Below, in pieces: positions 37,331 to 56,409 of a DNA stretch of 64,000 nucleotides; within the stretch, counting starts at the first letter, position 1; the number at the start of each line of letters is the position of its first letter. Source of the DNA: Ferranicluibacter rubi (GTDB lineage: Bacteria; Pseudomonadota; Alphaproteobacteria; Rhizobiales; Rhizobiaceae); the NCBI RefSeq assembly GCF_011603255.1, contig NZ_JAANCM010000003.1, positions 372,001-436,000 of the forward strand. The letters run 5' to 3'. The notes under the pieces are model-generated. The model was not told the origin of the DNA. It did not search any database and saw only the letters and a list, made by a program, of their open reading frames with translations. Position numbers and translations under genes: made by a program.

Positions 37331-39541
37331 ATGCGTATATTATCTCTCTTCATATGGATCACGTCCGCAGCAGCAATATTTGCATTTGTGCTGCAGCCAG
37401 TTGGTGCCGACGTACAATTGCTCGTCTCCGCTCTTACAATTGCCTTTCTATTCGTGATTACACGCTTCAATAGAACAGGTCCGCTGCGCTACATTGCGCT
37501 CGCAACTGCAAGCATCATCGTCCTGCGTTACGCATACTGGCGCACGACAAGCACGCTTCCGCCGATCGACGACCTGATGTCGTTTATCCCCGGCATTCTG
37601 CTTTACGTCGCCGAAATGTTCTGCATTTTCATGTTCTTCATTAGTGTATTCGTCGTCGCCGATCCGATCGAACGTCCTCGTGCCCGCCAGCTGGCAGATG
37701 ACGAACTCCCGACCGTCGACGTCTTCGTGCCTTCCTACAACGAAAGCGCCGAGATCCTCTCGCTGACGCTCGCTGCAGCGGCAGGCATGGATTACCCTTC
37801 CGACAAGTTCACCGTCTACCTTCTCGACGACGGCGGCACCGACCAGAAGCGCAACAGCAGCGATCCTGAAACCGCACAGGCCGCTATCGACCGTAGTCAT
37901 GCGTTGCGCACGCTCTGCCTCGATCTCGGTGTCCACTACCTGACGCGAGCCCAGAACGTTCACGCCAAGGCCGGCAACCTGAATGCGGGGATGGAGCGCA
38001 CCTCTGGTGACCTGATCGCCGTCTTCGATGCCGACCATGCACCTGAGCGCGCCTTCCTGCGCGAAACCGTCGGCCATTTCAGCGACGATCCCGATCTCTT
38101 CCTGGTCCAGACCCCACACTTCTTCGCAAATCCCGATCCGGTCGAGCGCAATCTCGGCACCTACAAGCATATGCCGGCCGAGAACGAGATGTTCTACACG
38201 ATGATCCAGAAGGGTCTGGATCGCTGGAATGCCTCGTTCTTCTGCGGCTCTGCTGCCGTCCTCCGCCGCGAAGCGCTGGACGAGGTCGGCGGCTTCTCCG
38301 GGATCACGATCACCGAGGACTGCGAAACGGCGCTCGAACTGCACTCCCGCGGCTGGAACAGCGTCTATGTCGATAAGCCTCTGGTCACCGGTCTCCAGCC
38401 GGAAACCTTCGCCAGCTTCATCGGACAGCGCTCGCGCTGGTGCCGGGGCATGATCCAGATCCTCATCCTGAAGAACCCGCTCTTCAAGCAGGGACTGACG
38501 CTTCCCCAGCGCCTGAGCTACATGTCGAGCTGCTTCTTCTGGCTCTTCCCCTTCGTGCGCACCGCCTTCCTCGTCGCGCCCATCCTCTTCATCCTGTTCA
38601 ACCTGAAGATCTTCAATGCCTCGGCCGAAGACTTCCTGGCCTATACCGTCACCTACCTCATCGCGTCCGAAATCCTGCGCAACTACCTCTACGGCAAGAT
38701 GCGCTGGCCCTGGATTTCCGAGCTGTACGAATATGTCCAGTCCGTCTTTCTGGTCCGTGCCATCGTCAGCGTCATCTTCAACCCGCGCAAGCCGACCTTC
38801 AACGTGACCGACAAGGGCGTGTCGCTGAACCAGCGCCAGCTTTCCAACCTCGCCTGGCCGTTCTTCGCCATCTTCGCCGGGCTCGGCATGGTCCTCTCCT
38901 ATGCGATCTACCGCTACCAGACGGAGCCGGCGCTCGGCGACCTGATCATCATCACCGGTGCCTGGAACCTGCTCAACCTGATCATCGCCGGCGCAGCACT
39001 GGGCATCGTCACCGAGCAGCCGAACGATGCCGACGGCATCAGCCTGCCCTCGGCACGCGCCGCAGAGCTTGAAGTGGGCAACCAGACCGTGCCCGTCACC
39101 ATTCGGCAGATCTCCTCGGAAAAGGCGATCATCGAACTGAAGAAGACCATGACAACCCCTCTGCGGGCCGGGGAATATGGTCGCCTGCTTCTCATCGATC
39201 CCCCTGCAAGCGTCATCCTGCCCTCGATTCCCGTGTTCATCGGCAAACCGTCCGGCAGCGATCATCGCAGCTTCGTGGTCGAACTCGACGCGGAAACCTG
39301 CCACTTCCCGGCCATCGCCAGCCTCATGCTCGCCGATCTCGACCTGCCACGCAGCCTGCGGGACGGTCGCCAGAAGCGGCGGTCCTACCCCGTCGCCCTC
39401 CTGACGCTGATCCGTTGGGCCATCTTCAGCCCCTTCCTCGCCGTCACGGCCGGTCTCTCGTCCAAATCGACGTCCGAGAGAACAAGCCGTCGTCGTCGTC
39501 CGACTGCCGAAAAGCCGCAACCTGTCGTCGAAGCCGCGTGA
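37331..39541 (+). CDS. celA: cellulose synthase catalytic subunit (BcsA/CelA)
   Basis: This processive GT2 membrane enzyme of 736 residues has catalytic motifs LLDDGG (D166-G168), DAD (233-235), TED (328-330) and QRSRW (366-370). The gating loop FNVTDKG (490-496) is intact. About eight membrane segments flank the GT domain. The C-terminal region (560-680) should be the PilZ domain that binds c-di-GMP, but the usual RxxxR and DxSxxG bases are not evident (see findings). The ATG at 37331 gives a length close to Agrobacterium CelA; upstream codons are AT-rich leader. It is the first gene of a celABCG-type operon. Confidence 0.95.
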   Translation: MRILSLFIWITSAAAIFAFVLQPVGADVQLLVSALTIAFLFVITRFNRTGPLRYIALATASIIVLRYAYWRTTSTLPPIDDLMSFIPGILLYVAEMFCIFMFFISVFVVADPIERPRARQLADDELPTVDVFVPSYNESAEILSLTLAAAAGMDYPSDKFTVYLLDDGGTDQKRNSSDPETAQAAIDRSHALRTLCLDLGVHYLTRAQNVHAKAGNLNAGMERTSGDLIAVFDADHAPERAFLRETVGHFSDDPDLFLVQTPHFFANPDPVERNLGTYKHMPAENEMFYTMIQKGLDRWNASFFCGSAAVLRREALDEVGGFSGITITEDCETALELHSRGWNSVYVDKPLVTGLQPETFASFIGQRSRWCRGMIQILILKNPLFKQGLTLPQRLSYMSSCFFWLFPFVRTAFLVAPILFILFNLKIFNASAEDFLAYTVTYLIASEILRNYLYGKMRWPWISELYEYVQSVFLVRAIVSVIFNPRKPTFNVTDKGVSLNQRQLSNLAWPFFAIFAGLGMVLSYAIYRYQTEPALGDLIIITGAWNLLNLIIAGAALGIVTEQPNDADGISLPSARAAELEVGNQTVPVTIRQISSEKAIIELKKTMTTPLRAGEYGRLLLIDPPASVILPSIPVFIGKPSGSDHRSFVVELDAETCHFPAIASLMLADLDLPRSLRDGRQKRRSYPVALLTLIRWAIFSPFLAVTAGLSSKSTSERTSRRRRPTAEKPQPVVEAA

Positions 39542-39564
39542 CCGGAAAGCCAGAGGAAAACATC

Positions 39565-41961
39565 ATGTTCAAGTCATCCACCCTTGCCCTCGCGCTCCTG
39601 CCGTCCATTCTCCTGGCCGGCCTCTCCAGCACGGCGCTTGCCCAAACGCTGGGCCAGGCGGCCGGGCAGCCAGCGGCACCGGCACCCTTCCGCTTCAACA
39701 CGACATCGTCGGCAACAGCACCGGCGCCGCTCGCCGATGTCGGCGGCACCCTGCGCAAGATCGCGGCGAGCCCCTACGACCTGTTCTTCGACGGCGAGTT
39801 TGCGAGCCGCAAGCTGTCCTTCTTCGCCCGGCCCGACGAGGCGTCGAGCGCGGCGCGCCTGGTCCTCACGCTTCAGACGGCCATTTCGGCGGCGCCGGAG
39901 CGCTCGAACCTCACCATCCAGATCAACGGACGGGACATCGGCGCAACCAACCTCGTTGCCGGCGACCCGCGCCGCGTCACCTTCGACATACCGGCCGGCG
40001 TCATCCAGCCAGGCTATAATGCGGTCGCCATCGCCGCCAGCCACCGCCACCGTGTCGATTGCAGCGTCGAGGCGACCTATGAGCTCTGGACCAAGATCGA
40101 TCCCGCGCAGAGCGGCTTTGTCTTCCCCTCGGCCGAGGCGGGCAACCTCACCATGATCGACCTGATGCCGCTCGCCGGCACCCGGGAAGGCCGCACCAAC
40201 CTGCGCGTCATCCTGCCAAAGGGCGCGCAAATGGCGGACTATGATCGCGCATTGAACGTGGTGCAGGCGCTGGCGATCACCGGCAATCTCAATCATCCCC
40301 AGGTCGAGTTCGGCGCGACGCCCGGTACGGGTGCCGGCATCGACATCTATGTCGGCGTCAGCAAGGATATCGCCGCCCTGCTCGGCGCCGGTGCGCCAGT
40401 TCTCGCTTCCGGAGAAGCAGCCATCGTTGCGGCCGGCGCGACGCCTGAGCGCAAGCGCCTGATCATTTCCGGCCTCGATACAGCCGATCTCGACGCAAAG
40501 ACGCAGCAATTCGTGCAGCAGGCGACACAGGAACGGCCCGTCGGCACACCAGAAGGGCTGGCCGCGCTGACGAACATGAAAGGCCGGCTCCTCGTTCCCG
40601 GTGAGAAGGTCGCGCTGTCGGATCTTGGCTTTACGGCAAAGCCTTTCGATGGCCGGCTCGTGCAGTCGAAGGTCAATTTCACCATGCCGTCGGACTTCTA
40701 CCCCGGCGCCTATTCCAGCATGAGCTTCCACCTTAATGCACTCTATGTCGGCGGCCTTTCTCCGGATGCCGTCCTCACGGTCAAGGCGAACGACAAGGTC
40801 GTCGCCAACATCCCCCTGAGTTCGCCGCGTGGCGGCGCCATCCGCGACCAGCGCCTGCCGATCCCGTTCACGGCGCTGCGCCCGGGCCAGAACACGCTGC
40901 AGATCGAAGCCCGCCTTCCTTCGAAGCTCGATGCCGCCTGCGAGTCCGTCGACAAGGCGACATCGACGGCCCGCCTCTCCATCGACGGAAATTCCTACCT
41001 CGATATTCCGAACTATGCCCGTGTCGGTCGCTATCCGGATATCGCCGCTCTGACCTCGGGCCTTCCCGCCCCGGTCGAAGGCGAGACAGGGGCCGCAACC
41101 ACGCTTCTCGTGCCGAACTACAATGCCCAGAGCATGGATGCCGCAGCGACCTTCGTCGCCAAGATGGCCTACGCATCCAGCCAGGTGAAGCCGATGCAGT
41201 ACACCTCGCTGCTGCCGGCCATGGACACGACAAACCTCATCGCGTTCGGCGGATATGACACGCTACCCTCCGAACTCGTCAGCCGCATGAACCTCGACTT
41301 CGTCAACATCCGCAACATGGCCGGGTCGGCAGCCTCGCCGTACGAAGTTGCCGCACTCGAAAACTTCGGGCCGCAGAGCGACATGCAGCGCCAGATGACA
41401 ACGAGCGTCGTCGGCACGGCCGTGGACCTCTCGCAGACGGCCGGCAGCTTCCTTGCCGCCCCCGTCGAACGCTCGGCGGACATGCTGCAGGCCATCCGCA
41501 CGAAGGCCGTCTCCGAACTCTCCAAGCTCAACATCGCGCCGCTGCGCGCCCTTCTGGGCGACGAGATCAAGCCGGAAGCCTTCTCGCCCACGGCGGAAAC
41601 CACGCTGGTGATCGCCCAGAATGCCGGCGGAAATGGCGGGCTGTGGACCGTGGTCGCATCCAAGAGCGCCAGCGGCATCGTGGCGGGCACCGACGTTCTG
41701 ACGGATCTCAACGTGTGGAATACGCTCGGCGGATCGGTTCAGGCGTTTTCCGAAACGGGCATCAAGCTCGACCAGCAGCTTGCGACCAACCAGACGCTTT
41801 ACCGGACTCAGCCGTTCAGCCTGTCGAACATGCGTCTGGTCACGGCAAGCTGGCTGGCCAACAATGCCGCCGTCTACATCTTCGCGCTGCTGACGGCCGC
41901 CATCCTTCTCGGCCTCGGCACCTACATGGTTCTGACGACCGGACGCCGCAATCATGGCTAA
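39565..41961 (+). CDS. celB: cellulose synthase periplasmic subunit (BcsB/CelB)
   Basis: This 798-residue protein has a signal peptide (MFKSSTLALALLPSILLAGLSSTALA), a long periplasmic body with two repeated carbohydrate-binding/flavodoxin-like pairs, and a C-terminal membrane anchor (VYIFALLTAAILLGLGTYMVL) that docks on BcsA. The conserved SFFARPDEASSAARLVLTL and LSFHLNALYVGGLSPDAVL regions fit BcsB. It is 23 bases after celA, with GAGGAAA before the ATG. It guides the nascent glucan through the periplasm. No BcsC outer-membrane gene is in this operon. Confidence 0.93.
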   Translation: MFKSSTLALALLPSILLAGLSSTALAQTLGQAAGQPAAPAPFRFNTTSSATAPAPLADVGGTLRKIAASPYDLFFDGEFASRKLSFFARPDEASSAARLVLTLQTAISAAPERSNLTIQINGRDIGATNLVAGDPRRVTFDIPAGVIQPGYNAVAIAASHRHRVDCSVEATYELWTKIDPAQSGFVFPSAEAGNLTMIDLMPLAGTREGRTNLRVILPKGAQMADYDRALNVVQALAITGNLNHPQVEFGATPGTGAGIDIYVGVSKDIAALLGAGAPVLASGEAAIVAAGATPERKRLIISGLDTADLDAKTQQFVQQATQERPVGTPEGLAALTNMKGRLLVPGEKVALSDLGFTAKPFDGRLVQSKVNFTMPSDFYPGAYSSMSFHLNALYVGGLSPDAVLTVKANDKVVANIPLSSPRGGAIRDQRLPIPFTALRPGQNTLQIEARLPSKLDAACESVDKATSTARLSIDGNSYLDIPNYARVGRYPDIAALTSGLPAPVEGETGAATTLLVPNYNAQSMDAAATFVAKMAYASSQVKPMQYTSLLPAMDTTNLIAFGGYDTLPSELVSRMNLDFVNIRNMAGSAASPYEVAALENFGPQSDMQRQMTTSVVGTAVDLSQTAGSFLAAPVERSADMLQAIRTKAVSELSKLNIAPLRALLGDEIKPEAFSPTAETTLVIAQNAGGNGGLWTVVASKSASGIVAGTDVLTDLNVWNTLGGSVQAFSETGIKLDQQLATNQTLYRTQPFSLSNMRLVTASWLANNAAVYIFALLTAAILLGLGTYMVLTTGRRNHG

Positions 41962-43078
41962 GCCGCTCGCTCTGGTCACATGGAGCCTGACGGCCGCCAT
42001 GACCGTCCTGCTCTCCGCCCTGCTGCCGTCGAGCGGCCTGGCGGCGGGCAAGACCGGCCGCGTGAAGGCGGCCGAGACCCTCCTCCCCACCGATTACATC
42101 GCCGGCGCCTGGTGGCTCTACAAATCCGTCTTCGTAGAAAACGGGCGCGTCATCGACCGGTCGAATGGCAACGTCTCGCACAGCGAGGGCCAGGGCTATG
42201 GCATGCTGATTGCCGTTGCGGCAGACGATCGCGAGGCTTTCGACGCGCTCTGGGCCTGGACGCGGGAAAACCTGCAGGTCCGCGGCGACGCGCTCTCGGC
42301 CTGGCGCTGGAGCCCGGACACGGCGATCCCAGTTGCCGATATGAACAACGCCTCCGACGGCGACCTTCTGATCGCCTGGGCGCTGTCGCGGGCAGCAACG
42401 CGGTGGCGCGAGCCGGCTCTGGCCGTCGAAGCGCGCCGGATTCTGAAGGATCTGACAGCCAAGGCGACGGTGAAGGATGCGAGCTATGGAACGCTGCTTC
42501 TTCCCGCCGCACAGGGTTTCAGCGGCAGCGCCGAGCAGCCCGGCATCGTCGTCAACCTCTCCTACTGGGTCTTTCCGGCCATTGAGGAACTGGGGCTGAT
42601 CGAACCCTCGTTCCCGGCAGATGACCTTGTCGCGAGCGGCAAGGCACTGCTCGAAAAGGGCCGTTTCGGCAGCAGTCATCTCCCGGCCGACTGGCTATCG
42701 CTGAGGGGCGACCACCCGCAGCCGGCACCGGCCTTCGCCGCCACCTTCGGCTACGAGGCGGTCCGTGTTCCGCTCTACACGGCCTGGTCCGGCGGTGCAC
42801 CGCTGTCGCTCCTGACGGGCGTGCAGCAGCGCTGGAACGAGAACGGCGCAAACGTCATGCATGTCATGGACCTGGCAACGGCCACCGCAATGACGGCCAT
42901 GTCCGACCCCGGTTACCGCGCCGTCAGCGCGCTTCTGTCCTGCGGCCTCGACAAAGCCGGCCAAGCTTCCAGCATGCCGCCCTTCGAACCGACCGAATAT
43001 TACCCATCCACGCTCCATCTCCTGAGCATCATCGCCATCTCCGAGAGGTATGCATCATGTCTTCCAAGTCAAAACTGA
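41954..43078 (+). CDS. celC: GH8 endo-beta-1,4-glucanase of the cellulose operon (BcsZ/CelC)
   Basis: This glycoside hydrolase family 8 enzyme has 374 residues and an N-terminal signal peptide. The catalytic acid E78 is in SHSEGQGYGM and a conserved aspartate pair is in NNASDGDLLIAWAL (D135, D137). The VNLSYWVFPA and the late PPFEPTEYYPSTLHLLS also match BcsZ. The enzyme trims glucan chains and is needed for normal cellulose production in Agrobacterium and E. coli systems. The ATG overlaps the celB stop by eight bases. Confidence 0.93.
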   Translation: MAKPLALVTWSLTAAMTVLLSALLPSSGLAAGKTGRVKAAETLLPTDYIAGAWWLYKSVFVENGRVIDRSNGNVSHSEGQGYGMLIAVAADDREAFDALWAWTRENLQVRGDALSAWRWSPDTAIPVADMNNASDGDLLIAWALSRAATRWREPALAVEARRILKDLTAKATVKDASYGTLLLPAAQGFSGSAEQPGIVVNLSYWVFPAIEELGLIEPSFPADDLVASGKALLEKGRFGSSHLPADWLSLRGDHPQPAPAFAATFGYEAVRVPLYTAWSGGAPLSLLTGVQQRWNENGANVMHVMDLATATAMTAMSDPGYRAVSALLSCGLDKAGQASSMPPFEPTEYYPSTLHLLSIIAISERYASCLPSQN

Positions 43079-45207: not shown

Positions 45208-46863
45208 ATGACGCCGATATCCAGATCCATCTTCCGCAGCCGCCCGATCCTCAGAAGCGTGCGGAGCGCGATGATCGCCGGATCCGCCGCACTGGCGCTG
45301 GCAGCAGCATCGGCCGGTGCAGCATGGGCCGCAGGCACCCTGCGGATCGGCATGACCGCATCGGACATTCCGCTGACGACGGGGCAGACGGACCAGGGTG
45401 GCGAAGGCCAGCGCGTGATGGGCTACACGCTCTACAACGCATTGATCGAATGGGACCTGTCGAGCGCCGAAAAGGCCGCGACCCTGATCCCAAGCCTTGC
45501 GACGTCGTGGGACATCGACCCGACCGACCAGACCAAGTGGACGTTCAAGCTGCGGGACGGCGTGAAATTCCACGACGGCAGCAGATTTGACGCCAATGCC
45601 GTCGTCTGGAACCTCGACAAGCTTCTCAAGAGCGATGCGCCGCAGTTCGACAAGCGCCAGTCGGCGCAGGGCAAGTCGCGCATCCCCGCCGTCGCCTCCT
45701 ACAAGGTCATCGATCCCCTCACAGTCGAGATCGTGACCAAGACGCCGGATGCGACCCTGCCCTACCAGATCAGCTGGATCCTCATGTCCTCGCCGGCCAA
45801 CTGGGAAGCACAGGGCAAGAACTGGGACGCAGTGGCGCAGAAGCCATCGGGCACCGGCCCGTGGAAGCTCGAAAACGGCTTCACACCGCGCGAACGCGCA
45901 GAACTGACGCCGAATGCAGACTATTGGGACAAGGCGCGCATCCCCAAGCTCGACAAGCTCGTGCTCATTCCGCTGCCGGAGCCGAACACCCGTGTCGCAG
46001 CGCTCCGTTCGGGTCAGGTCGACTGGATCGAGGCGCCGGCGCCCGACTCCGTCGCGTCCCTGCGGGATGCAGGCTTCAAGATCGTCACCAACTCCTATCC
46101 GCATAACTGGACCTGGCACCTCTCGCGCGTCGAGGGTTCCCCTTGGAACGATATCCGCGTCCGCAAGGCGGCAAACCTTGCCGTTGACCGCGAGGGCCTG
46201 AACGAACTTCTCGGTGGATTGTCGATTCCCGCACAAGGCTACCTGCCGCCCGGCAGCCCCTGGTTCGGCAATCCGACCTTCAAGCTGAGCTACAATGTCG
46301 AGGAAGCCAAGAAGCTGATGGCGGAAGCGGGCTACGGTCCGGACAAGCCCATCACCACCAAGGTCGTCATCTCCTCGTCCGGTTCCGGACAGATGCTGCC
46401 GCTGCAGATGAACGAGTATATCCAGCAGACGCTGGCCGAGATCGGCATCAATGTCGAATTCGAAGTGGCCGACTGGAACACGGTCATCAACATCTGGCGC
46501 GCCGGTGCCAAGGATCCGAGCGCCAAGGGCGCGACCGCAGTCAACTACAGCTACTTCATCCAGGACCCCTTCACGGCCCTTATCCGCCAGTCGCAGTGCA
46601 ACCTCGCACCGCCGGCCGGCACCAACTGGGGCTATTATTGCGACCCCGAGATGGACGAACTGTTCGCCAAGGTGCGCACTACCTTCGATCCGGTCGAACA
46701 GAACAAGGTGCTGCAGCAGATCCACGAGAAATACGTCAACGAAGCCCTGTTCCTGATGGTCACGCACGACGTCAATCCACGGGCGATGACGGAAAAGGTC
46801 AAGGGCTTCGTGCAGGCACAGAACTGGTTCCAGGATTTCTCGACCATCAGCGTCGATCCCTGA
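45208..46863 (+). CDS. peptide/opine-type ABC transporter binding protein (family 5)
   Basis: This periplasmic family-5 (DppA/OppA-like) binding protein has 551 residues. It has a long basic N-region and a signal core (IAGSAALALAAASAGAAWA), a mature start AGTLRIGMTASDIP, and the family's segments TKWTFKLRDGVKFHDG and ISWILMSSPANWEAQGK. The ATG at 45208 is set by GAGGGAA. A two-tier hairpin follows the stop, probably to boost this gene over the downstream permeases. The ligand may be a peptide, opine or hydantoin-like amide, given the racemase-family gene in the operon. Confidence 0.9.
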   Translation: MTPISRSIFRSRPILRSVRSAMIAGSAALALAAASAGAAWAAGTLRIGMTASDIPLTTGQTDQGGEGQRVMGYTLYNALIEWDLSSAEKAATLIPSLATSWDIDPTDQTKWTFKLRDGVKFHDGSRFDANAVVWNLDKLLKSDAPQFDKRQSAQGKSRIPAVASYKVIDPLTVEIVTKTPDATLPYQISWILMSSPANWEAQGKNWDAVAQKPSGTGPWKLENGFTPRERAELTPNADYWDKARIPKLDKLVLIPLPEPNTRVAALRSGQVDWIEAPAPDSVASLRDAGFKIVTNSYPHNWTWHLSRVEGSPWNDIRVRKAANLAVDREGLNELLGGLSIPAQGYLPPGSPWFGNPTFKLSYNVEEAKKLMAEAGYGPDKPITTKVVISSSGSGQMLPLQMNEYIQQTLAEIGINVEFEVADWNTVINIWRAGAKDPSAKGATAVNYSYFIQDPFTALIRQSQCNLAPPAGTNWGYYCDPEMDELFAKVRTTFDPVEQNKVLQQIHEKYVNEALFLMVTHDVNPRAMTEKVKGFVQAQNWFQDFSTISVDP

Positions 46864-46945: not shown

Positions 46946-47899
46946 ATGCTGGCTTATGCCCTGAAGAGACTGCTGCACGTCATTCCCGTTGCGATCGGCG
47001 TGAGCATCGTCTGCTTCCTCCTGATCCATATCGCGCCGGGCGATCCGCTCGCCGCCATCCTGCCCTCCGATGCCTCCGCCGAGCAGCAGATGCAGATGCG
47101 CGTCTTCTACGGGCTCGATCAGCCCCTGCCGGTACAATACGGGCTCTGGGCCTGGCGCACGCTCCACGGCGATCTCGGCGTTTCCATCGCCTCCGGTCGG
47201 CCGGTTCTGAGCGAAATTCTCGATGCCTCGGTCAACTCGATCATCCTCGCCGTCGCCGCGACGCTCATCGGCTTCACCATCGGCTCGGTGCTCGGCTTCG
47301 TGGCGGGCGTCTTCCGTGGCGGCTGGATCGACCGGCTGGCCTCCGCCGTCGCCATGCTCGGCGTCAGCGTTCCCCACTACTGGCTTGGCATGGTGCTCGT
47401 CATCGCCTTCTCGGTCACCCTCGGCTGGCTGCCGGCGATGGGTGGCGGCCCCGGCGGGTCCGACGGGCGGGCCTTCAGCTGGGACTATGTGCAGTATCTC
47501 ATCCTGCCGGCCGTCACCATGTCGGTCATCCCCATGGGCATCATCGCCCGCACCATCCGCTCGCTGGTGGCCGATATCCTGTCGCAGGATTTCACCCAGG
47601 CGCTGGCCGCCAAGGGCCTTATGTCGCGCCAGATCCTGCGCCATGTCATCCGCAACGCGGCGCCCACCGCCATCTCGGTCATGGGCCTGCAGCTCGGCTA
47701 TCTCCTCGGCGGCTCGATCCTCATCGAGACGGTGTTCTCCTGGCCCGGCACGGGTTTTCTCCTCAACGGCGCAATCTTCACCCGCGACCTGCCCATCCTG
47801 CAGGGCACGATCCTCGTGCTCGCCCTGTTCTTCGTCTTCCTCAACCTCATCGTGGACGTGCTGCAAAGTGCGATCGATCCGCGCATCCAGAGGAGCTGA
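46946..47899 (+). CDS. peptide-type ABC permease 1 (DppB-like)
   Basis: This six-segment permease of 317 residues starts with the typical LKRLLHVIPVAIGVSIVCFLLIHIAPGDP of DppB-family proteins. The docking loop is RSLVADILSQDFTQALAAKGL, and the late LLGGSILIETVFSWPGTGFLL is characteristic. It pairs with the next gene and is separated from it by four bases. Confidence 0.93.
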   Translation: MLAYALKRLLHVIPVAIGVSIVCFLLIHIAPGDPLAAILPSDASAEQQMQMRVFYGLDQPLPVQYGLWAWRTLHGDLGVSIASGRPVLSEILDASVNSIILAVAATLIGFTIGSVLGFVAGVFRGGWIDRLASAVAMLGVSVPHYWLGMVLVIAFSVTLGWLPAMGGGPGGSDGRAFSWDYVQYLILPAVTMSVIPMGIIARTIRSLVADILSQDFTQALAAKGLMSRQILRHVIRNAAPTAISVMGLQLGYLLGGSILIETVFSWPGTGFLLNGAIFTRDLPILQGTILVLALFFVFLNLIVDVLQSAIDPRIQRS

Positions 47900-47902
47900 T
47901 CC

Positions 47903-48793
47903 ATGGCCGTCATCACCGCAGACATGGTCGCGCCCAGGCCCGCGATTCTCAAGTCGCCCGGCTTCTGGAGCGGCGTCATCCGCCGGCTCTGTCGTGATCC
48001 CGTGGCGCTTGCGGCCCTTGCCGTCGTCGTCCTCCTCGTGCTGATCGCGATCTTCGCGCCTTATATCGCGCCTTACGACCCCTCCAAAGGCAGCGTCATC
48101 CGCCGCCTGAAGCCCATCGGCACGCCCGGCTTCATCCTCGGCACGGACGAACTCGGTCGCGACATGCTCTCGCGGCTGATCTACGGCGCGCGCCTCTCGC
48201 TCACCATGGGCGTCATTCCCGTTCCCATCGCCTTCGTCATCGGCTCGGCCATCGGCATCATCGCCGGTTATGCCGGCGGCATCGTCAACACGCTGATCAT
48301 GCGCACGATCGATGTCTTCTACGCCTTCCCCTCGGTTCTCCTCGCCGTCGCTTTGTCCGGCGCGCTCGGTTCGGGGCTCACCAATGCGCTGGTGTCGCTC
48401 ACCGTCGTCTTCATCCCGCAGATCGCGCGTGTCGCCGAAAGCGTGACGACGCAGGTGCGCAAGCTCGATTACGTCGATGCCGCCCGCGCGTCCGGCGCTC
48501 CGGCGCGCACGATCATCCGGGTGCACATTCTCGGCAATGTGCTCAGCCCGATCTTCGTCTTCGCCACCAGCTTGATCTCGGTTTCCATGATCCTCGCCTC
48601 CGGTCTTTCCTTCCTCGGGCTCGGCGTGCGCCCGCCGGATGCGGAATGGGGGCTGATGCTGAACACGCTGAGAACCGCGATCTACAACAACCCCTTCGTC
48701 GCGGCCCTGCCGGGCCTGATGATCTTCGTCACCTCCGTCTGCTTCAACCTCTTCTCGGATGGTCTGCGCACTGCCATGGACGTGAAATCATGA
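47903..48793 (+). CDS. peptide-type ABC permease 2 (DppC-like)
   Basis: This six-segment permease of 296 residues has the DppC N-terminal pattern (VALAALAVVVLLVLIAIFAPYIAPYDP, then GTDELGRDMLSRLIYGARLSL). The docking loop is RKLDYVDAARASGAPARTIIRVHIL, and GLSFLGLGVRPPDAEWGLML is near the end. The stop overlaps the ATPase start by four bases, so translation is coupled. Confidence 0.93.
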   Translation: MAVITADMVAPRPAILKSPGFWSGVIRRLCRDPVALAALAVVVLLVLIAIFAPYIAPYDPSKGSVIRRLKPIGTPGFILGTDELGRDMLSRLIYGARLSLTMGVIPVPIAFVIGSAIGIIAGYAGGIVNTLIMRTIDVFYAFPSVLLAVALSGALGSGLTNALVSLTVVFIPQIARVAESVTTQVRKLDYVDAARASGAPARTIIRVHILGNVLSPIFVFATSLISVSMILASGLSFLGLGVRPPDAEWGLMLNTLRTAIYNNPFVAALPGLMIFVTSVCFNLFSDGLRTAMDVKS

Positions 48794-49857
48794 GCGCCGT
48801 CATATCACCCTATAATCTGGATCCGGGCGTCGGCGAGCGCGGCGGACCGGCCCAACCGCTGATCTCGGCACGCGGTCTGCTGAAGCATTTCCCGGTGAAA
48901 AGCAGCGGCTTGTTCGCGCCGAAGAAAGTTGTGCGCGCCGTCGATGGCGTCGATTTCGACATTCTGAAGGGCGAGACGCTGGGCGTCGTCGGCGAGAGCG
49001 GCTGCGGCAAATCCACGACGGCGCGGCTTCTGATGAACCTCATCGTCCGCGACAAGGGCGATCTCCTGTTCGACGGCGAGACGGTCGGCGAAACCCTGCC
49101 GCTCGCGCAGTACCGGCGACAGGTGCAGATGGTCTTTCAGGACAGCTATGCCTCGCTCAACCCGCGCCTGACGATCGAGGAATCGATCGCCTTCGCGCCG
49201 CAGGTGCATGGCGTGCCCGCTGCCAAAGCCATCGCCCGCGCGCATGACCTGCTCTTCAGGGTGGGATTGGAGCCCGGCCGCTTTGCCGGCCGCTATCCGC
49301 ACGAGCTTTCCGGCGGCCAGCGCCAGCGCGTCAACATCGCGCGCGCACTGGCGCTCGAGCCACGGCTGATCATTCTCGACGAGGCCGTTTCCGCGCTCGA
49401 CAAGTCGGTGGAGGCGCAGGTTCTCAACCTGCTTCTCGACCTGAAGCGGGATTTCGGGCTGACCTACCTGTTCATCTCCCACGACCTTAACGTCGTGAAG
49501 TTCATGTGCGACCGGGTCATGGTCATGTATCTCGGCAAGGTGGCGGAGATCGGCACACGCGCGGCCATCTTCGGCGAGGCCCGGCACCCCTATTCCGCAG
49601 CGCTTCTGGCCTCCATGCCGAAAATGGACCCGTCCGAGCGGACGATGGAGCCACCGCTGTCCGGCGATCCGCCGAACCCCATCGATCCGCCGAGCGGCTG
49701 TCGGTTCCACACGCGCTGTCAGTTCGTGGAAGACATCTGCAGCCGCGAGGTCCCGCCGCTCGCCAGCCTGTCCGCCGAGCAATCCGCGGCCTGTCTCATG
49801 GCCGTTCCCGGCTCCGGCCACAGCCGTGCGCCGAGCCTTGGGGAGACTTCGGCATGA
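48790..49857 (+). CDS. peptide-type ABC ATPase (DppF/OppF-like)
   Basis: This ATPase of 355 residues has Walker A GESGCGKST, Q-loop FQDSYASLNPR, signature LSGGQRQRVNIARAL, Walker B LIILDEAVSALD and FISHDL. The oligopeptide C-terminal domain with the CxxxxxPxL cysteines is present (CRFHTRCQFVEDICSREVPPL). The D in LDEAVSALD is intact. The ATG at 48790 overlaps the DppC-like stop. The usual order in peptide systems is DppD then DppF; here the F-like gene comes first. Confidence 0.93.
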   Translation: MSAVISPYNLDPGVGERGGPAQPLISARGLLKHFPVKSSGLFAPKKVVRAVDGVDFDILKGETLGVVGESGCGKSTTARLLMNLIVRDKGDLLFDGETVGETLPLAQYRRQVQMVFQDSYASLNPRLTIEESIAFAPQVHGVPAAKAIARAHDLLFRVGLEPGRFAGRYPHELSGGQRQRVNIARALALEPRLIILDEAVSALDKSVEAQVLNLLLDLKRDFGLTYLFISHDLNVVKFMCDRVMVMYLGKVAEIGTRAAIFGEARHPYSAALLASMPKMDPSERTMEPPLSGDPPNPIDPPSGCRFHTRCQFVEDICSREVPPLASLSAEQSAACLMAVPGSGHSRAPSLGETSA

Positions 49858-50828
49858 CCGATACGATGATCGATATCGACAATCTCTCTGTCACCTTTCA
49901 TCGCGGCCGCAAGCCGGTCAAGGCCGTGAACGGCGTGACCCTGAAGGTGCGTGCGGGCGAGGTGGTTGCCCTGCTCGGGGAATCCGGTTCCGGCAAGAGC
50001 GTGACCATGCGCTCGCTGCTGCGCATGCACCCCAAGGGCACCACCATCGAGGGCACGATGTCCGTGGCGGGTCGCGACGTCACGGGGCTTTCGACGCGAG
50101 ACCTCGGCAATCTGCGTGGCGCCGTCGTGTCCATGGTGTTTCAGGAGCCGCGCCTCGCGCTCGATCCGGTCTACACGCTCGGCCGGCAGATCGAGGAAAC
50201 GATCATGCGCCACGAGCGGGTTTCGAGAGCGCAAGCGTCCGCACGGGCGCTGGCGCTGTTCGAAAAGGTCCGCATTCCCTCGCCGCAACGACGCTTGCAG
50301 AACTACCCGCACGAAATGTCCGGCGGCATGCTGCAGCGGGCGATGATCGCCATGGCGCTCGCCTGCAATCCGAAGGTGCTGCTGGCCGACGAGCCGACGA
50401 CGGCGCTGGACGCGACCGTGCAGATCCAGATCCTGCTGCTGATCCGCGAGCTGCAGAAGGAATACGGCCTGTCGGTGATCTTCGTCACCCACGATATCGG
50501 CGTTGCCGCGGAGGTCGCAGACCGGATCGCGGTGATGTATGCCGGGCGGATCGTCGAGGAAGGCACGGCGAGCGATATCATCCGCAATCCGAAGCATCCC
50601 TACACCAAGGGCCTGCTCGGCGCGCGCGTCGAGCTTGCCGATGGCCGCGACCGGCTCATCACCATCCCCGGCGCCCCGCCGGATCTCGCCGACATGCCGC
50701 CCGGCTGCGCTTTCGCCCCGCGCTGCGCGGATGTCATGGCCCCCTGCCGGGCCGTCGTGCCGCCGCTGGTGGGCGCTGCCGGATCGTCAGAGCGTGCCGG
50801 TCAGGTCGCCTGCCTGCTCTATGCGTGA
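49854..50828 (+). CDS. peptide-type ABC ATPase (DppD/OppD-like)
   Basis: This ATPase of 324 residues has Walker [11 protein letters not shown]-loop [11 protein letters not shown], signature [15 protein letters not shown], Walker [13 protein letters not shown] and [14 protein letters not shown]. The oligopeptide C-terminal part has [15 protein letters not shown]. The ATG at 49854 overlaps the previous stop by four bases. The signature motif has GGM in place of GGQ, common in DppD. It completes the ABC system, followed 33 bases later by the racemase-like gene. Confidence 0.93.
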
Positions 50829-50861: not shown

Positions 50862-51551
50862 ATGAAGCATATCGTCGTCATCAACCCCAACACGTCCGCC
50901 GCCACAACGGTCATGATGACGGATCTCGTTCGCGCCGCGCTCCCGCCGCATGTGAGCGCGAACGGCATGACCGCAAGCGTTGGCGTTCCGATGATCCTCG
51001 ATCCGGTACAGCTGGAAGCATCGGTCGCCGGTGTTGTGGAGATGGGCCTTTCCGCTGCGAAGACCGCAGACGGCCTGATCGTCTGCGCTTTCGGCGATCC
51101 CGGTCTCGAGGCGCTGCGCTCCCGGATCGACATTCCCGTGGTCGGCATCTGCGAAGCGAGCATGCTGGAGGCCGCAGCCGGCGGTCGCAGGTTTGGCATC
51201 GCCACGGTCACACCCGATCTCGTGGGAAGCTTTGCGGAAAAGGCAGCGGCGCTCGGCCTTGCCGATCGTTTCACCGGCACGCGCCTGACGAGCGGAGATC
51301 CGATGCACTTGGCCGGCGACTCGGACCGGCTGAGCGAGGCATTGGCCCTCGCGGTTCGTCAGTCGCTGGAACACGACGGTGCGGATGTCGTCATCATCGG
51401 CGGCGGCCCGCTCGGCCGCGTGGCCGCTGAGCTGCAACGGCAGTTGTCGGTGCCGGTCATCGCCCCCATCACTTCGGCTGTCACGTTGCTGCTTGCGCGG
51501 ATGGCGGAGGCGGCTCAGCGCGAGCCGCGTCGGCGCAGCTGGTCGAAGTAG
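50862..51551 (+). CDS. Asp/Glu/hydantoin racemase-family protein lacking the second cysteine
   Basis: This 229-residue protein of the Asp/Glu racemase superfamily has MKHIVVINPNTSAATT as start, C75 in LIVCAFGDPGLEAL, and C97 in GICEAS. Active hydantoin racemases use two cysteines, one near 76 and one near 181 within an LGC motif. Here the second region reads IIGGGPLG, with G181 where the cysteine should be. It may therefore not racemise by the two-base mechanism. It is the last gene of the peptide-type ABC operon. The 3' end overlaps the convergent rbsC-like gene by 37 bases. Confidence 0.82.
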   Translation: MKHIVVINPNTSAATTVMMTDLVRAALPPHVSANGMTASVGVPMILDPVQLEASVAGVVEMGLSAAKTADGLIVCAFGDPGLEALRSRIDIPVVGICEASMLEAAAGGRRFGIATVTPDLVGSFAEKAAALGLADRFTGTRLTSGDPMHLAGDSDRLSEALALAVRQSLEHDGADVVIIGGGPLGRVAAELQRQLSVPVIAPITSAVTLLLARMAEAAQREPRRRSWSK

Positions 51552-52489
51552 ACGATGATGATGATCAGCGCGCCGGTGATGATCCGTTGCCAGAACGAAT
51601 TGAGGTTCAGGAGGTTCGCGCCATTGTTGATCGTCGCCAGAATGAAGGCGCCGAGCAGCGGCCCGTGGATGGAGCCGACCGCCCCGAACAGGCTCGTACC
51701 ACCGATGACCGAGGATGCAATCGCCTGAAGCTCCCAGCCTTCCGCCTGCGTGGCATTGCCGATGCCGATGCGCGAGGCGAGCAGAATGCCGACGAAGGCG
51801 GCGCAGGTCGAGGAGAGGATGTAGGCGAGGTAGATCGTGCGCTCGACATTGACGCCCGAGAGGCGGGCCGCTTCCCGGTTGGACCCCACGGCGAAGAGAT
51901 AGCGTCCCCAGCGGCTGAGATGCAGGAAGACGAAGGCCGGGATCGCCACGACGATCACCATCCAGAACAGACTGGGCACGCCGAGGAAATCCGCACGGGA
52001 GAAGTTGGCGAAACTCTCGTTTGTGATCGAGATGGTCGAACCATTGGTGATGAGCAGGCCGATGCCGCGCAGCGACGTCAGGGTCGCGAGCGTGATGATG
52101 AAGGCGGGCAGGCCCATGCGCACGATGCCGAAGGCATGGAAGGCGCCGATGAAAACGCCGACGAGAAGCGTAATGCCGATCGCGGGCCAGAGCGGCACGC
52201 CATGCGCCAACAGCCAGGCGATCGTGACGCTGGAAAAGCCGACCACCGCGCCGACCGAAAGGTCGATGCCGGCCGTGATGATGACGAAGGTCTGTCCGAC
52301 TGCGAGAATGGCCGTCATGGCGCCCTGGCGCAGCAGGTTGCTGATATTGTTCGACGTCCAGAAACTGTTGGTCGACAGGCCCAGAAGAAGCCAGAGGAAC
52401 AGGAGGAGCCCGAGAAGCGTCAGGCCGAACAGGATGTTCATGCCCTTCTTCGGCACCGGTGCCGCCTCGGTCGTGGTCTCTACGCTCAT
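51515..52489 (-). CDS. RbsC-type sugar ABC permease
   Basis: This CUT2-family permease of 324 residues has about ten membrane segments. The conserved GQTFVIITAGIDLSVGAVVGFSSV, VGSNREAARLSGVNVERTIY and the later ASSVIGGTSLFGAVGSIHG are RbsC/AraH features. It is the last gene of the sugar unit, 41 bases after the ATPase. Its 3' end is inside the convergent racemase gene. Confidence 0.93.
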   Translation of the reverse strand: MSVETTTEAAPVPKKGMNILFGLTLLGLLLFLWLLLGLSTNSFWTSNNISNLLRQGAMTAILAVGQTFVIITAGIDLSVGAVVGFSSVTIAWLLAHGVPLWPAIGITLLVGVFIGAFHAFGIVRMGLPAFIITLATLTSLRGIGLLITNGSTISITNESFANFSRADFLGVPSLFWMVIVVAIPAFVFLHLSRWGRYLFAVGSNREAARLSGVNVERTIYLAYILSSTCAAFVGILLASRIGIGNATQAEGWELQAIASSVIGGTSLFGAVGSIHGPLLGAFILATINNGANLLNLNSFWQRIITGALIIIIVYFDQLRRRGSR

Positions 52490-52530
52490 GATTGTCCTCC
52501 AGCCATCGTCATTTCCGGTCTTTAACTTGG

Positions 52531-54084
52531 TTAGACGCCGATCGCCTGCGTTAGCACGTCCTCGTGGGACGCCGTGCGGTAGGCGTGGCTCGCCACCAGT
52601 CGGCCCTGGCGGAATACATGCAGCGTGTCGGCAAGTTCGTAGACTTCCGGCAGGTAGGACGAGATCAGGATGATACCCGCACCCTCTTCCAGAAGCTTGG
52701 AAAACAGCCGGTAGATCTCGGCTTTCGTGCCGACATCGACGCCGACGGTGGGTTCATCGAAGATGAACAGCTTGGCCCCGTGGCTCAACCATTTGCCGAT
52801 GACGATCTTCTGCTGGTTGCCGCCCGACATGGCGGACGCGAGCACCCGCCGCGTCGGCGTCTTGATCTTCAGGTCGCTGATCTGGCGGTCGGCATTGGCG
52901 ATCTCGCGTTTGCGATTGATCGTCAGACCGTTCGACAGCCGGTCGAACACCGGCAGGTTGATGTTGAGCCCGATGGGCAGGTTGAGGCAGAGGCCCTGAT
53001 CGCGACGGCTTTCCGGCGCGAGCGCGATCCCGAGATCCATGGCGACACGCTCGTTGCGGATATCGACAGTCTTGCCTTCGAACAGGATCTCGCCGGCCGT
53101 GACCTTCTCGCGGCCGTAAAGCCCCAGCGCAAACTCGCTTCGTCCGGCGCCGATCAGCCCATAGAGGCCGACGATTTCGCCTGCGCGCACGGTGAGCGAA
53201 ATATCCTGGAAGCCCGGGCCGGAAAGGCCGCGCGTTTCCACGATCGGCTTGCCGATCGGCAGCGTTTCCTTGTGGTAGACCTGCTCGATCGAGCGGTTGA
53301 TCATCATGGAGATCAGCTCGGCATCGTTCGTTTCGCCGATCAGGCGCGTGCCGACATGGGTGCCGTCGCGCAGCACCGAGACGCGGTCGGCAAGCTCGAA
53401 CACCTCCTCCATGCGATGGCTGATATAGACGATGGTGACGCCCTGCCCCTGCAGGCGGCGGATCAGCCGGAAGAGCTGCGCCGATTCTTGGCGCGTCAGG
53501 TAGGCTGTCGGCTCGTCGAAGATCAGGAACTGCGTGCCGCGCATGGCGGCGCGGGCGGTGGCGACCAGCTGCTGCTGGCCGATCGTCAGATCGGAAAGCA
53601 GCGCGCTGGCCGGCAGGTTGAAGCCGAGATCGTTCAGCACCGCTTGGGCGGCGTCGGTCATGGCGCGCTTGCGCATCAGGCCGCGCCGGTTCATCTCGTC
53701 GCCGAGGAACATATTGGCCGCGACCGTCAGATGCGGGCAGAGCACGACCTCTTGGTGCACGGCATTGATACCGCGCGAAATCGCTTCATTCGGGTCGGAC
53801 AGCGGCACCGACTGACCACACCAGACGATTTCGCCGGAGGTGCGCCGGATGACGCCCGTCAGCAGCTTGATCAGCGTCGATTTTCCTGCGCCGTTCTCGC
53901 CGACGATGGCGTGGATTTCGCCGGAAAGGAAGGTGATGGATGCAGGCCGCAGCGCTTCCACCGTCCCGTAGCGCTTGTGCAGGCCACGCAGTTCGAGAAT
54001 GGGCGCACCCTTGGCGACGGGGCCGCCCGAAAGCGCCTCGACCTCCGCGTCATGCCGGTGGCTCACATCGTTCAATCCGGTCAT
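52531..54084 (-). CDS. RbsA-type sugar ABC ATPase (two ATP-binding halves)
   Basis: This ATPase of 517 residues has two tandem nucleotide-binding domains. The first has Walker A GENGAGKST, signature LTIGQQQLVATARA and Walker B FLIFDEPTAYL. The second has the degenerate Walker A GLIGAGRSE, MSGGNQQKIVIGKW and LFIFDEPTVGVD, as usual for RbsA/AraG. The ATG at 54084 is supported by GGAGGAGAG; ATG at 54099 adds five residues. It lies 121 bases after the binding-protein gene. Confidence 0.93.
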   Translation of the reverse strand: MTGLNDVSHRHDAEVEALSGGPVAKGAPILELRGLHKRYGTVEALRPASITFLSGEIHAIVGENGAGKSTLIKLLTGVIRRTSGEIVWCGQSVPLSDPNEAISRGINAVHQEVVLCPHLTVAANMFLGDEMNRRGLMRKRAMTDAAQAVLNDLGFNLPASALLSDLTIGQQQLVATARAAMRGTQFLIFDEPTAYLTRQESAQLFRLIRRLQGQGVTIVYISHRMEEVFELADRVSVLRDGTHVGTRLIGETNDAELISMMINRSIEQVYHKETLPIGKPIVETRGLSGPGFQDISLTVRAGEIVGLYGLIGAGRSEFALGLYGREKVTAGEILFEGKTVDIRNERVAMDLGIALAPESRRDQGLCLNLPIGLNINLPVFDRLSNGLTINRKREIANADRQISDLKIKTPTRRVLASAMSGGNQQKIVIGKWLSHGAKLFIFDEPTVGVDVGTKAEIYRLFSKLLEEGAGIILISSYLPEVYELADTLHVFRQGRLVASHAYRTASHEDVLTQAIGV

Positions 54085-54205
54085 TCGGCTCTCCTCCAAA
54101 GGTCGCGAACAGGCGCGGCGGCCTCGCCCGAACGAGATGCGCCGCGACCGCGTGTGTCGATGGACGGCAGGGTCTGCTCTTGAAAAGCCCCGCCGTCCTT
54201 TATCG

Positions 54206-55210
54206 TCAGTTGATCTTCGGATTCAGAAGCGCGTCGATCTTCGGATCGGCCATGTTGGCCTTGGTGACGAGGTTCGCGCCGGTATCGACGGTGGCCTCGA
54301 CCTTCTCCTTCTTGGAGACGGCAAGCGCGGTCTTGATGCCGTCATAGCCCATGCGGTACGGGTCCTGCACCACGAGACCGGCAAGAACGCCTTCCTTCAG
54401 GAACCCGACCGTCTTCTCGTCGCTGTCGAAACCAATGACCTTCACCTTCTCGCCCAGCTTGTTCTCGGCAATGGCCTGGCCCACACCCTGTGCCATGATC
54501 AGGTTGGAGGCGAAGACGCCGACAAGGTTCGGATTGGCGGTGATCAGGTCGGTCATGATGTTGAGGCCGGTCGAGGCCTGACCATCGGCGTACTTGTCGG
54601 CAACGACCTTCAGGCCCGGATATTTGGACTTGATCTGGTCGAGGAAGCCTTCCTTGCGCTGCTCCAGCGAGCCGGCGCCGGGGGTGTTGGTGATGATGGC
54701 GATCTCGCCCTCATCCTTGCCGGTCGCTTCCTTGATGGCCGCAGCGAGGCCATCGGCCGCAATCCGACCGCCCTGAACGTTGTCGGTGGTCAGGAACGAA
54801 CTGAAGGCCTTGGAATCGGCGCCGGAATCAATGCCGATGATCGGAACCGCCTTGGCGGCTTCATCGACCGGCTTGCCGAGCGCCTTGAACTCCGTCGGCG
54901 AAATGACGATGGCGGCGGGGCTGCCGGCAACCGCATTTTCCAGAATGCTGATCTGGCCGTTCACGTCGGTCTCGGCCTGTGCGCCGAGTTCCGGCACGTT
55001 GACGCCGAGGTCCTTGCCGGCCGCACGCGCACCGGCGAGAACGATCTGCCAGTAGAACGAGGTCGTATCCTTGACGATGATCGGAATGGTAACGTCCTGG
55101 GCAAAGGCGCCCATCGGCATCATCGTGGCGATGACGGCCGCGCCGGCAACGCTTGCCAGCGATCGACGCGCAAAAGCGCGACGCGACAGAATATGGTTCA
55201 GCAGTGTCAT
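54206..55210 (-). CDS. RbsB-type periplasmic sugar-binding protein
   Basis: This family-2/4 binding protein of 334 residues has a signal peptide with twin Arg-like region (SRRAFARRSLASVAGAAVIATMMPMGAFA) and mature start QDVTIPIIVKDTTSFYWQIVLAG. NPNLVGVFASN and VKVIGFDSDEK are the usual sugar-binding positions. It is the first gene of the sugar importer. The ATG at 55210 has GGAGGA at a fair distance; the leader contains the same ribosome-site sequence twice (see repeat at 55217-55255). A Tat-type RR pair is present but the consensus is weak. Confidence 0.92.
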   Translation of the reverse strand: MTLLNHILSRRAFARRSLASVAGAAVIATMMPMGAFAQDVTIPIIVKDTTSFYWQIVLAGARAAGKDLGVNVPELGAQAETDVNGQISILENAVAGSPAAIVISPTEFKALGKPVDEAAKAVPIIGIDSGADSKAFSSFLTTDNVQGGRIAADGLAAAIKEATGKDEGEIAIITNTPGAGSLEQRKEGFLDQIKSKYPGLKVVADKYADGQASTGLNIMTDLITANPNLVGVFASNLIMAQGVGQAIAENKLGEKVKVIGFDSDEKTVGFLKEGVLAGLVVQDPYRMGYDGIKTALAVSKKEKVEATVDTGANLVTKANMADPKIDALLNPKIN

Positions 55211-55216
55211 GGTGTT

Positions 55217-55255
55217 GTTCTCCTCCAACAACGTCTTGTTCCGTTCTCCTCCAAC
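55217..55255 (-). repeat. duplicated ribosome-site segment before the rbsB-like gene
   Basis: The 13-mer GTTCTCCTCCAAC occurs at 55217-55229 and again at 55243-55255 on the plus strand. On the gene's strand each reads as a GGAGGAGAAC ribosome site, but only the nearer one is placed to start the binding protein. Confidence 0.7.
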
Positions 55256-55281
55256 CGTACCGAAGACGCGGCGATACGATC

Positions 55282-55289
55282 TTTATCTA
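55282..55289 (+). promoter_or_regulatory. TTTATCTA element before the sugar transporter
   Basis: TTTATCTA in an A/T-rich stretch 72 bases upstream of the rbsB-like start. The same eight bases are found at 56504-56511 between the aldo/keto reductase and the GntR gene. Possible common GntR operator half-site. Confidence 0.4.
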
Positions 55290-55389
55290 TAAAAAACATA
55301 TTGTGGTCGGACGCTAACCCAAGACCGATCAAGTTGCAACCGGCATCCTCACAGCAAACGGAGCCCTCCCCGGCTCCGTCGATCGCCCG

Positions 55390-56409
55390 TCAAACGCGGA
55401 CGGCGTCCGTCCCCAAAGGTGGCGCGACGAGCGTATGGGCCTCGTAGGGTGCGAAGTCCTCAGGCTGCAGCCGGTGTGCTTCCAGCGCCATGTTGCGCGT
55501 CAGGCTGGAAGGCTTGGCCGTGCCGAGAAGCACGGAGGCGACCAGCGGGTTCTGCAGCGGAAACTGCATGGCCGGCGCCGCGATCGGCACGCCCTGCGAC
55601 GCCGCGATCTTTTCCATGGCGCCGACCTTTTCAACAACCTCCGGCGAAGCCGGACCGTAATCGAAATGCGCGCCATCGACCGCACCCGTCGCGAGGATGC
55701 CCGAATTGAAGACGCCGCCCACGACGAGCGAGGTGTTTTTCTCAGCACAGAGAGGCAGCAGTTCCGAAACCGCCGTCCGGTCGAGCAACGTGTAGCGTCC
55801 GGCCAGCAGAATGCAGTCGAGATCGGCTTCGCGCATCACGTCGAGGCAGACGGGAACCTCGTTGACCCCGAGACCATAGGCGGCGATGGCACCGCTCGAT
55901 TTCAGCGCATCCAGCGCCTTGAGGCCGCTGTCGAGCAATTGCTTGAGGTAGACCGCGTTGCGCTCGGCGCCATGGGTGTAGACGCCGATATCGTGGACGA
56001 ACAGGATGTCGAGCCGGTTGAGGCCGGTGCGGGCGTAGCTGAACTCCACCGAACGCATGATGCCGTCATAGGAGTAGTCATAATCCGTCTCGAAGGGCAG
56101 CGGATCGACGAAGCCGAAATCGGGAACCTTGTCATCGGCAACGGGACGCAACAGCCGGCCGACCTTGGTGGACAGAACATAGCTGTCGGACGGCTTGTCG
56201 CGCAGGAAATCGCCGACCCGCCGCTCGGCTAGGCCAAAGCCGTACCACGGTGCGGTATCGAAAAACCGCATGCCGGAATCCCAGGCGGCTTCCAGCGTCT
56301 CCATCGCCGCATCGCGCGGGCAGGTTCGGTACATGCCGCCCAGCGGCGCGGTGCCGAAGCTGTATTCCGTGACGGAGAGGTCTGTCGTGCCGATCTTACG
56401 CGTCTTCAT
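55390..56409 (-). CDS. aldo/keto reductase (fucose/D-threo-aldose dehydrogenase-like)
   Basis: This AKR of 339 residues has the catalytic tetrad visible as D51 and Y56 (FDTAPWYG), K82 (STKVGR) and H139 (FVHDI). The DYDYSYDGIMRSVEFSYARTGLNRLDILFVHD segment is characteristic of the D-threo-aldose 1-dehydrogenase/L-fucose dehydrogenase group. It likely oxidises or reduces an aldose taken up by the RbsABC-like system upstream in the genome order. It is divergent from the GntR gene, with a 196-base shared promoter region. Confidence 0.88.
   Translation of the reverse strand: MKTRKIGTTDLSVTEYSFGTAPLGGMYRTCPRDAAMETLEAAWDSGMRFFDTAPWYGFGLAERRVGDFLRDKPSDSYVLSTKVGRLLRPVADDKVPDFGFVDPLPFETDYDYSYDGIMRSVEFSYARTGLNRLDILFVHDIGVYTHGAERNAVYLKQLLDSGLKALDALKSSGAIAAYGLGVNEVPVCLDVMREADLDCILLAGRYTLLDRTAVSELLPLCAEKNTSLVVGGVFNSGILATGAVDGAHFDYGPASPEVVEKVGAMEKIAASQGVPIAAPAMQFPLQNPLVASVLLGTAKPSSLTRNMALEAHRLQPEDFAPYEAHTLVAPPLGTDAVRV

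Follow-up and report, generated by a model that had tools for sequence, protein, structure and literature searches.

The cleft of the aspartate/glutamate racemase fold lies at the strand ends. Natural replacement of one catalytic cysteine is known from the racemases themselves, as in E. coli EcL-DER, which has Thr83/Cys197; the maleate isomerases use two cysteines and so provide no precedent for a one-cysteine enzyme. For PfAllR, Cendron and colleagues are said to have found in 2016 that Glu78 takes over from the missing cysteine. This protein of Pseudomonas fluorescens (5LFD/5LG5), deposited as an allantoin racemase, has Gly75 in place of the first cysteine and keeps the second (LGCGG). In KpAllR of Klebsiella pneumoniae (3QVJ/3QVK), Cys79 and Cys184 are named as catalytic, and Asn12, Thr118 and Thr119 form hydrogen bonds with the substrate (PMC12661438). 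For the Asp/Glu racemase MMP0739, a cysteine and a threonine are given in PMC8142540. A precedent for non-racemase chemistry with an incomplete cysteine pair is the arylmalonate decarboxylase AMDase, which lacks the first cysteine (Gly74) and keeps the second (Cys188) as its sole proton donor (PMC4996985).

Here we describe a protein, P0001, which by alignment has neither cysteine. It is encoded by Ferranicluibacter rubi in the stretch of 64,000 nucleotides that was analysed as a whole and is called the window below (Table 1). The gene is real. It is under purifying selection, with dN/dS of 0.17-0.19 in comparison with six relatives, and decay to a pseudogene is ruled out by this ratio together with the fixed Ala/Gly pair described below. 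The only Pfam family found for P0001 at E <= 0.001 is PF01177 (Asp_Glu_race; E 2.2e-41), and the score of 142.4 bits against a cut-off of 31, with positions 1-210 of 211 covered, makes it a member. No match to PF17645 (Pfam Amdase) was obtained at E <= 0.001. An AlphaFold2 model based on 41 rows (pLDDT 94.4, pTM 0.91) predicts the two-domain racemase fold, with Z of 30.3-30.6 to allantoin racemases. Its two best matches, PfAllR (5lg5, Z 30.6) and KpAllR (3qvk, Z 30.4, rmsd 1.7 over 218 residues, 29% identity), are tied and are followed by an archaeal hydantoin racemase (Z 26.0), OpaE (22.3) and AMDase (3dg9, 18.5). By sequence, the closest solved proteins are 3qvk, 3qvj and 5lfd, all titled allantoin racemases.

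The 3' end of the gene is overlapped by 37 bases by a permease ORF on the minus strand, and positions 51515-56409 of the window, on that strand opposite to P0001, are taken up by genes for a sugar-type ABC transporter and for an aldo/keto reductase. Positions 37388-43075 carry consecutive genes for a cellulose-synthase-like glycosyltransferase, BcsB and a GH8 glycosidase.

P0001 has two cysteines in all, Cys75 and Cys97. In an ungapped stretch, the P0001 sequence DGLIVCAFGDPG aligns on DGHVIACFGDPG of KpAllR, so that Ala76 falls on the first catalytic cysteine (Cys79) and Cys75 on the alanine before it. Further along, IIGGGPLG aligns on VLGCGGMA and Gly181 on the second catalytic cysteine (Cys184). 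The same two columns are found in MAFFT family alignments and in a profile-profile alignment to two-Cys relatives (probability 99.9). A structural superposition of model residues 1-218 on residues 3-221 of the 3qvk chain (218 residues), given as an overall fit with no residue pairs printed, is consistent with the equivalences 76 = 79 and 181 = 184. As these alignments place Ala76 and Gly181 on both catalytic positions, P0001 has neither catalytic cysteine and is, on this evidence, a zero-Cys and not a one-Cys member of the family. The preliminary description had correctly recognised the glycine at the second site, but had taken Cys75 for a retained first cysteine, and its one-Cys premise does not hold. 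AMDase, which it had offered as a parallel, goes the opposite way, the description having assumed that the first cysteine is the one kept. Its suggestion that P0001 might catalyse a different reaction or serve the transporter operon by binding gains support, since with both catalytic cysteines absent P0001 cannot be an ordinary Cys/Cys racemase.

Table 1. Positions in the window of the P0001 gene, of the transporter genes preceding it and of the codons discussed in the text.
Feature	Position	Strand	Remarks
Solute-binding protein, SBP_bac_5	45208..46863	+	Pfam ORF from 45205; upstream of P0001 gene
Opp/Dpp-type ABC permease	46946..47899	+	
Opp/Dpp-type ABC permease	47903..48793	+	
Opp/Dpp-type ATPase, oligo_HPY C-terminus	48790..49857	+	
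Opp/Dpp-type ATPase, oligo_HPY C-terminus	49890..50828	+	start 49890, or 49854 by gene caller
Racemase-like gene P0001	50862..51551	+	229 aa; zero-Cys protein of the Asp/Glu/hydantoin-racemase fold, from ORF list, Pfam and predicted model
Cys75 codon	51084..51086	+	one residue before catalytic position; group A S 51, A 21, G 7, C 5, N 1 (n=85)
Ala76 codon	51087..51089	+	first catalytic Cys position (KpAllR Cys79)
Asp79 codon	51096..51098	+	first candidate acid/base; on Glu78 of PfAllR (alignments counted by hand)
Cys97 codon	51150..51152	+	Cys in 57/85 group A rows; off catalytic positions
Thr117 codon	51210..51212	+	Thr in 84/85 group A rows, Leu in 16/19 two-Cys rows
Asp146 codon	51297..51299	+	second candidate acid; after strand 137-142; Asp in 74/85 group A rows
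Gly181 codon	51402..51404	+	second catalytic Cys position (KpAllR Cys184)

The likeness to KpAllR extends to the INPNTS and FGDPG loops. The differences comprise Thr119 and Leu120 of KpAllR, replaced by Val116 and Thr117, the Gly-Met that follows its second cysteine, replaced by Pro-Leu, and the transporter beside which P0001 is encoded. PfAllR resembles P0001 in lacking the first cysteine and in having an acid three residues on, which is Glu rather than Asp, but it keeps the second cysteine where P0001 has Gly181. The Cys/Thr racemases MMP0739 and EcL-DER likewise retain one catalytic cysteine, and AMDase, which is of the same fold class, depends on its only one, while P0001 has none. By sequence and predicted fold, P0001 is a PF01177 member that is neither a two-thiol racemase nor an AMDase, as the residues that define both were looked for and are absent. 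A PF17645 profile search of its own genome gave no match, but the control matched nowhere either, so that absence from the genome is not shown by it.

Relatives were gathered by similarity to P0001, giving 176 hits after a length filter and, once identical and contained rows were removed, 141 distinct family rows (query included). The pair at 76/181 is Ala/Gly in 113, Cys/Cys in 19, Cys/Gly in 8 and Gly/Cys in 1 (column 76: A 113, C 27, G 1; column 181: G 121, C 20), where 113 of 141 is no frequency because of the way the rows were gathered. Wherever a cysteine has been lost the same small residue is found in its place, which indicates a fixed alternative state and not decay. We call group A the Ala/Gly rows with GP at 182-183 (85 rows, query included) and group B those with AP (27 rows); one Ala/Gly row belongs to neither. 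Constancy of Ala76, Gly181 and 182-183 within the groups is no evidence, as the groups are defined by these residues; the counts over all 141 rows do count as evidence, with the proviso that likeness to P0001 selected the rows. A quick tree was built from 109 of the 141 rows with the catalytic columns left out; it requires three changes for the four states compared with a mean of 26.7 in shuffles, and the query lies within a set of 57 rows, all of them Ala/Gly (SH-aLRT 100). As the deep branches are weak and the root was not inferred, the tree gives no order of the cysteine losses.

The arrangement envisaged in the preliminary description, with the first cysteine kept and glycine at the second site, does occur, unlike in P0001, in relatives L089, L092, L150, L153, L159, L160, L161 and L041 (4706-5380). 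A record titled Bacillus subtilis SK6B4 (L034/L099) shares its length and its gene order with a contig of genome G325, from the family to which the window itself belongs, so that its species label looks wrong.

How unusual such a protein is was assessed in a class-wide sample of 57 genomes, where a Pfam match, and no resemblance to P0001, was the criterion. Of the 111 PF01177 places listed, the census covers the best 76, which come from 31 of the 57 genomes; the window's genome and the query are included, and one row has an internal stop. Both cysteines are found in 34 of these places, only the second in 16, only the first in 6 and neither in 20 (query included), the columns of distant rows being unsure. 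Incomplete pairs are clearly common in PF01177, and the zero-Cys state of P0001 is only moderately unusual. Other residues, such as Thr/Ser or His/Gly, occupy the two sites in most other zero-Cys rows of the census, so that the Ala/Gly pair is a feature of the branch of P0001. Among the papers listed in searches of open-licence literature, none dealt with the zero-Cys Ala/Gly branch. A further zero-Cys set within PF01177, whose first site reads D-[TA]-x-S-D and whose second reads LGST, is represented by L187, L212, L214, L217, L221 (genome G422), L210 (G426) and L207 (G420); genome G422 has ten PF01177 matches.

Of several possible explanations, we favour one in which P0001 is a catabolic enzyme that retains the Asp/Glu-racemase fold, works by non-thiol chemistry with both cysteines replaced, and acts on an imported substrate, the Ala76/Gly181 pair being an old change kept throughout the branch. 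Taken jointly, we give this explanation a probability of a little under 40%. With Ala76 and Gly181 in place of both cysteines, no two-thiol 1,1-proton transfer would take place. The substrate would be a small, probably carboxylate-bearing compound imported by the adjacent transporter, which is of the opp-type ABC class here and of the MFS class elsewhere. Asn10 and Thr115 would hold this substrate, and Thr117 together with the Gly180-Gly182 backbone would provide an oxyanion site. Catalysis would come from an acid/base other than a thiol on a single face, for which Asp79 is the likelier candidate and Asp146 the less likely one, and such a one-sided site would be a better fit to decarboxylation, elimination, isomerisation or hydrolysis than to racemisation.

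Several observations on the cleft bear on this proposal. The substrate contacts Asn12 and Thr118 of KpAllR correspond to Asn10 and Thr115 of P0001 (N in 84 and T in 82 of the 85 group A rows), while the third is lost, Thr119 corresponding to Val116 (V 40, T 35, S 7 of 85). Among the 29 group A positions conserved at >=95%, 18 lie in strand-end stretches, which make up 60 of 211 positions (Fisher p 5e-5; eight-residue stretches from strand ends, the four group-A-defining positions left out); without the short strand ending at 201, the numbers are 16 of 29 versus 52 of 211 (p 1e-4). Asp79 is the first candidate acid/base on account of its place in the Glu78 column and the role reportedly played by Glu78 in PfAllR. 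The acid thus stands three residues after the lost first cysteine, as in PfAllR, though its column is also Asp in 19 of 19 two-Cys rows, so that Asp79 may be structural. In the column of Asp146, the two-Cys rows have mostly Pro or Gly and no Asp. AMDase has a motif RVAVxTAY (PMC4996985) and, by motif reading only, Thr117 may stand at the place of its oxyanion residue, Tyr126. An hhalign comparison of the P0001 family with the profile of the AMDase-like neighbour family gave a probability of 2.4% and no usable alignment. The human trans-3-hydroxyproline epimerase has a fold different from that of P0001. The loss of one cysteine can turn this epimerase into a dehydratase (PMC8142540). Judging from the residues at its active site, P0001 probably carries out chemistry other than that of the two-Cys racemases.

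The idea of an imported substrate comes from the gene neighbourhood. The stop codon of the second ATPase gene ends 33 bases before the start codon of P0001. Among NCBIfam models, nickel and glutathione binders come closest to the binding protein, followed by others; none of them reaches its cut-off, and its solved relatives have equally mixed ligands, so we claim no substrate from the binding protein. The context could be read for 64 group A rows, the window's among them. An opp ATPase or MFS gene is directly adjacent in 41 of these and an RpiR gene lies no more than three genes away in 32, while among two-Cys rows both counts are 0 of 7. A putative transporter-part cluster, in some cases assigned by reading only, is found within three genes in 55 of the 64. 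In these counts, rows with unclassifiable genes (e.g. L098 and L129 of group A) or with the family gene uncalled (e.g. L034, L099, L134) are left out, genomes shared between collections are retained, and gene clusters are named from one Pfam-checked member each.

Most related Rhizobium loci have the order opp operon, P0001-type gene, RpiR regulator. A Rhizobium leguminosarum plasmid is annotated with an ABC permease, two ATPases, an 'aspartate/glutamate racemase family protein' and a MurR/RpiR regulator, in that order, and the loci of Herbaspirillum, Ralstonia and Sinorhizobium mostly read RpiR, MFS transporter, P0001-type gene. The type of transporter varies among genomes and the transporter next to the gene stays; one group B relative (L116) directly adjoins a TRAP transporter. 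The link is not strict, as 23 of the 64 group A rows have neither an opp ATPase nor an MFS gene adjacent, and opp genes are missing beside the gene in L006, a relative with 82% identity. The best model for the MFS neighbour is the aromatic acid/H+ symporter TIGR00895, at 186 bits against a cut-off of 418.55, which gives a hint only of such an identity. In L030 (7992) and L031 (7992), both from Sinorhizobium/Ensifer, the last base of the called MFS frame is also the first base of the called racemase-like start codon, an arrangement that suggests translational coupling of the two genes. On a tentative wider view, the gene would form catabolic modules that are portable and can exchange their importers (opp ABC, MFS, TRAP), joined by hydantoinase and amidase partners in other clades; with the enzymatic reading included, we attach slightly less weight to this view than to that reading itself.

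The main rival is a binding-only role, in which the cleft binds the imported compound without turnover and P0001 acts as a pseudoenzyme, for example as a sensor, a buffer or a partner of the transporter or of the RpiR regulator. Both thiols are gone and yet two of the three substrate contacts are kept, the smallest modules consist of transporter and regulator genes with no other gene common across genomes, and binding without catalysis would yield the same conservation. However, RpiR has a SIS domain of its own, and no RpiR gene is found beside the gene in the window or in its relatives L005, L006, L007 and L012. Moreover, in other clades a hydantoinase, amidase, amidohydrolase or deacetylase cluster is found no more than three genes from the zero-Cys gene (18 of 64 rows in group A, 10 of 15 in group B), as it is in 5 of 7 two-Cys rows, and this suits an enzyme. 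We consider a pure binding protein unlikely, though it is the most serious of the alternatives.

Both kinds of zero-Cys paralogue, of groups A and B, are present in one locus in L107 (8561-10035), L111 (7658-9132), L103, L105, L106, L112 and L119; in L107 and L111 the two genes are directly adjacent, beside a hydantoinase-cluster gene, and an amidase-cluster gene is near the zero-Cys genes of L103, L106, L107 and L112. An obligate hetero-oligomer of the two paralogues was rejected: not one of the four PF01177 genes in the window's genome belongs to group B, so no such partner is needed. AMDase-like proteins (cluster 22, with PF17645 in the L112 member), whose first motif reads GTS and whose second reads CTN, are encoded in L112, L114, L115, L117, L121 and L122. 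In these loci they accompany a zero-Cys gene and mostly a GntR regulator, hydantoinase or amidase, which suggests that the AMDase-like and zero-Cys genes share a catabolic pathway.

Less probable again is that P0001 is a racemase or epimerase after all, with Asp79 standing in for one thiol and Asp146, water or another group acting on the opposite face. PfAllR, among the closest folds, offers a model for the first half of such a site, as it is deposited as an allantoin racemase in spite of Gly75 and has Glu78 in the column of Asp79, and Asp146 follows its strand in the second half of the protein. Against this, PfAllR keeps precisely the second cysteine that in P0001 is glycine, and Asp146 is not invariant in group A.

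A one-Cys enzyme in which Cys97 is a relocated catalytic thiol is very unlikely. The residue does lie at a strand end, just after strand 93-95, and is the most frequent one at its position in group A (C 57, A 16, G 10, F 1, S 1), but 28 of the 85 rows lack it while Ala76 and Gly181 are unchanged, and cysteine also occurs there in 2 of 19 two-Cys rows. Nor does Cys97 occupy the second catalytic site, as the preliminary description had allowed for, since it aligns on an alanine of KpAllR (GICEASM on GIAEAAM), off both catalytic positions. That Cys75, which is in the right loop, serves as the first catalytic cysteine is rejected by the KpAllR, family and profile-profile alignments, all of which place it one residue early, and by its presence in only 5 of 85 group A rows. 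The paralogue L002 from the same genome reads ICTNT and has, like P0001, a cysteine one residue before the catalytic column.

Racemases of this kind are usually recognised by the two-thiol pair, and P0001-type genes are labelled 'aspartate/glutamate racemase family protein' in plasmid records. Proteins of a branch in which alanine and glycine fill the two sites ought not to carry a racemase annotation. As a single gene, often with its own importer and regulator, this branch offers a clean test of what the fold is capable of without thiols.
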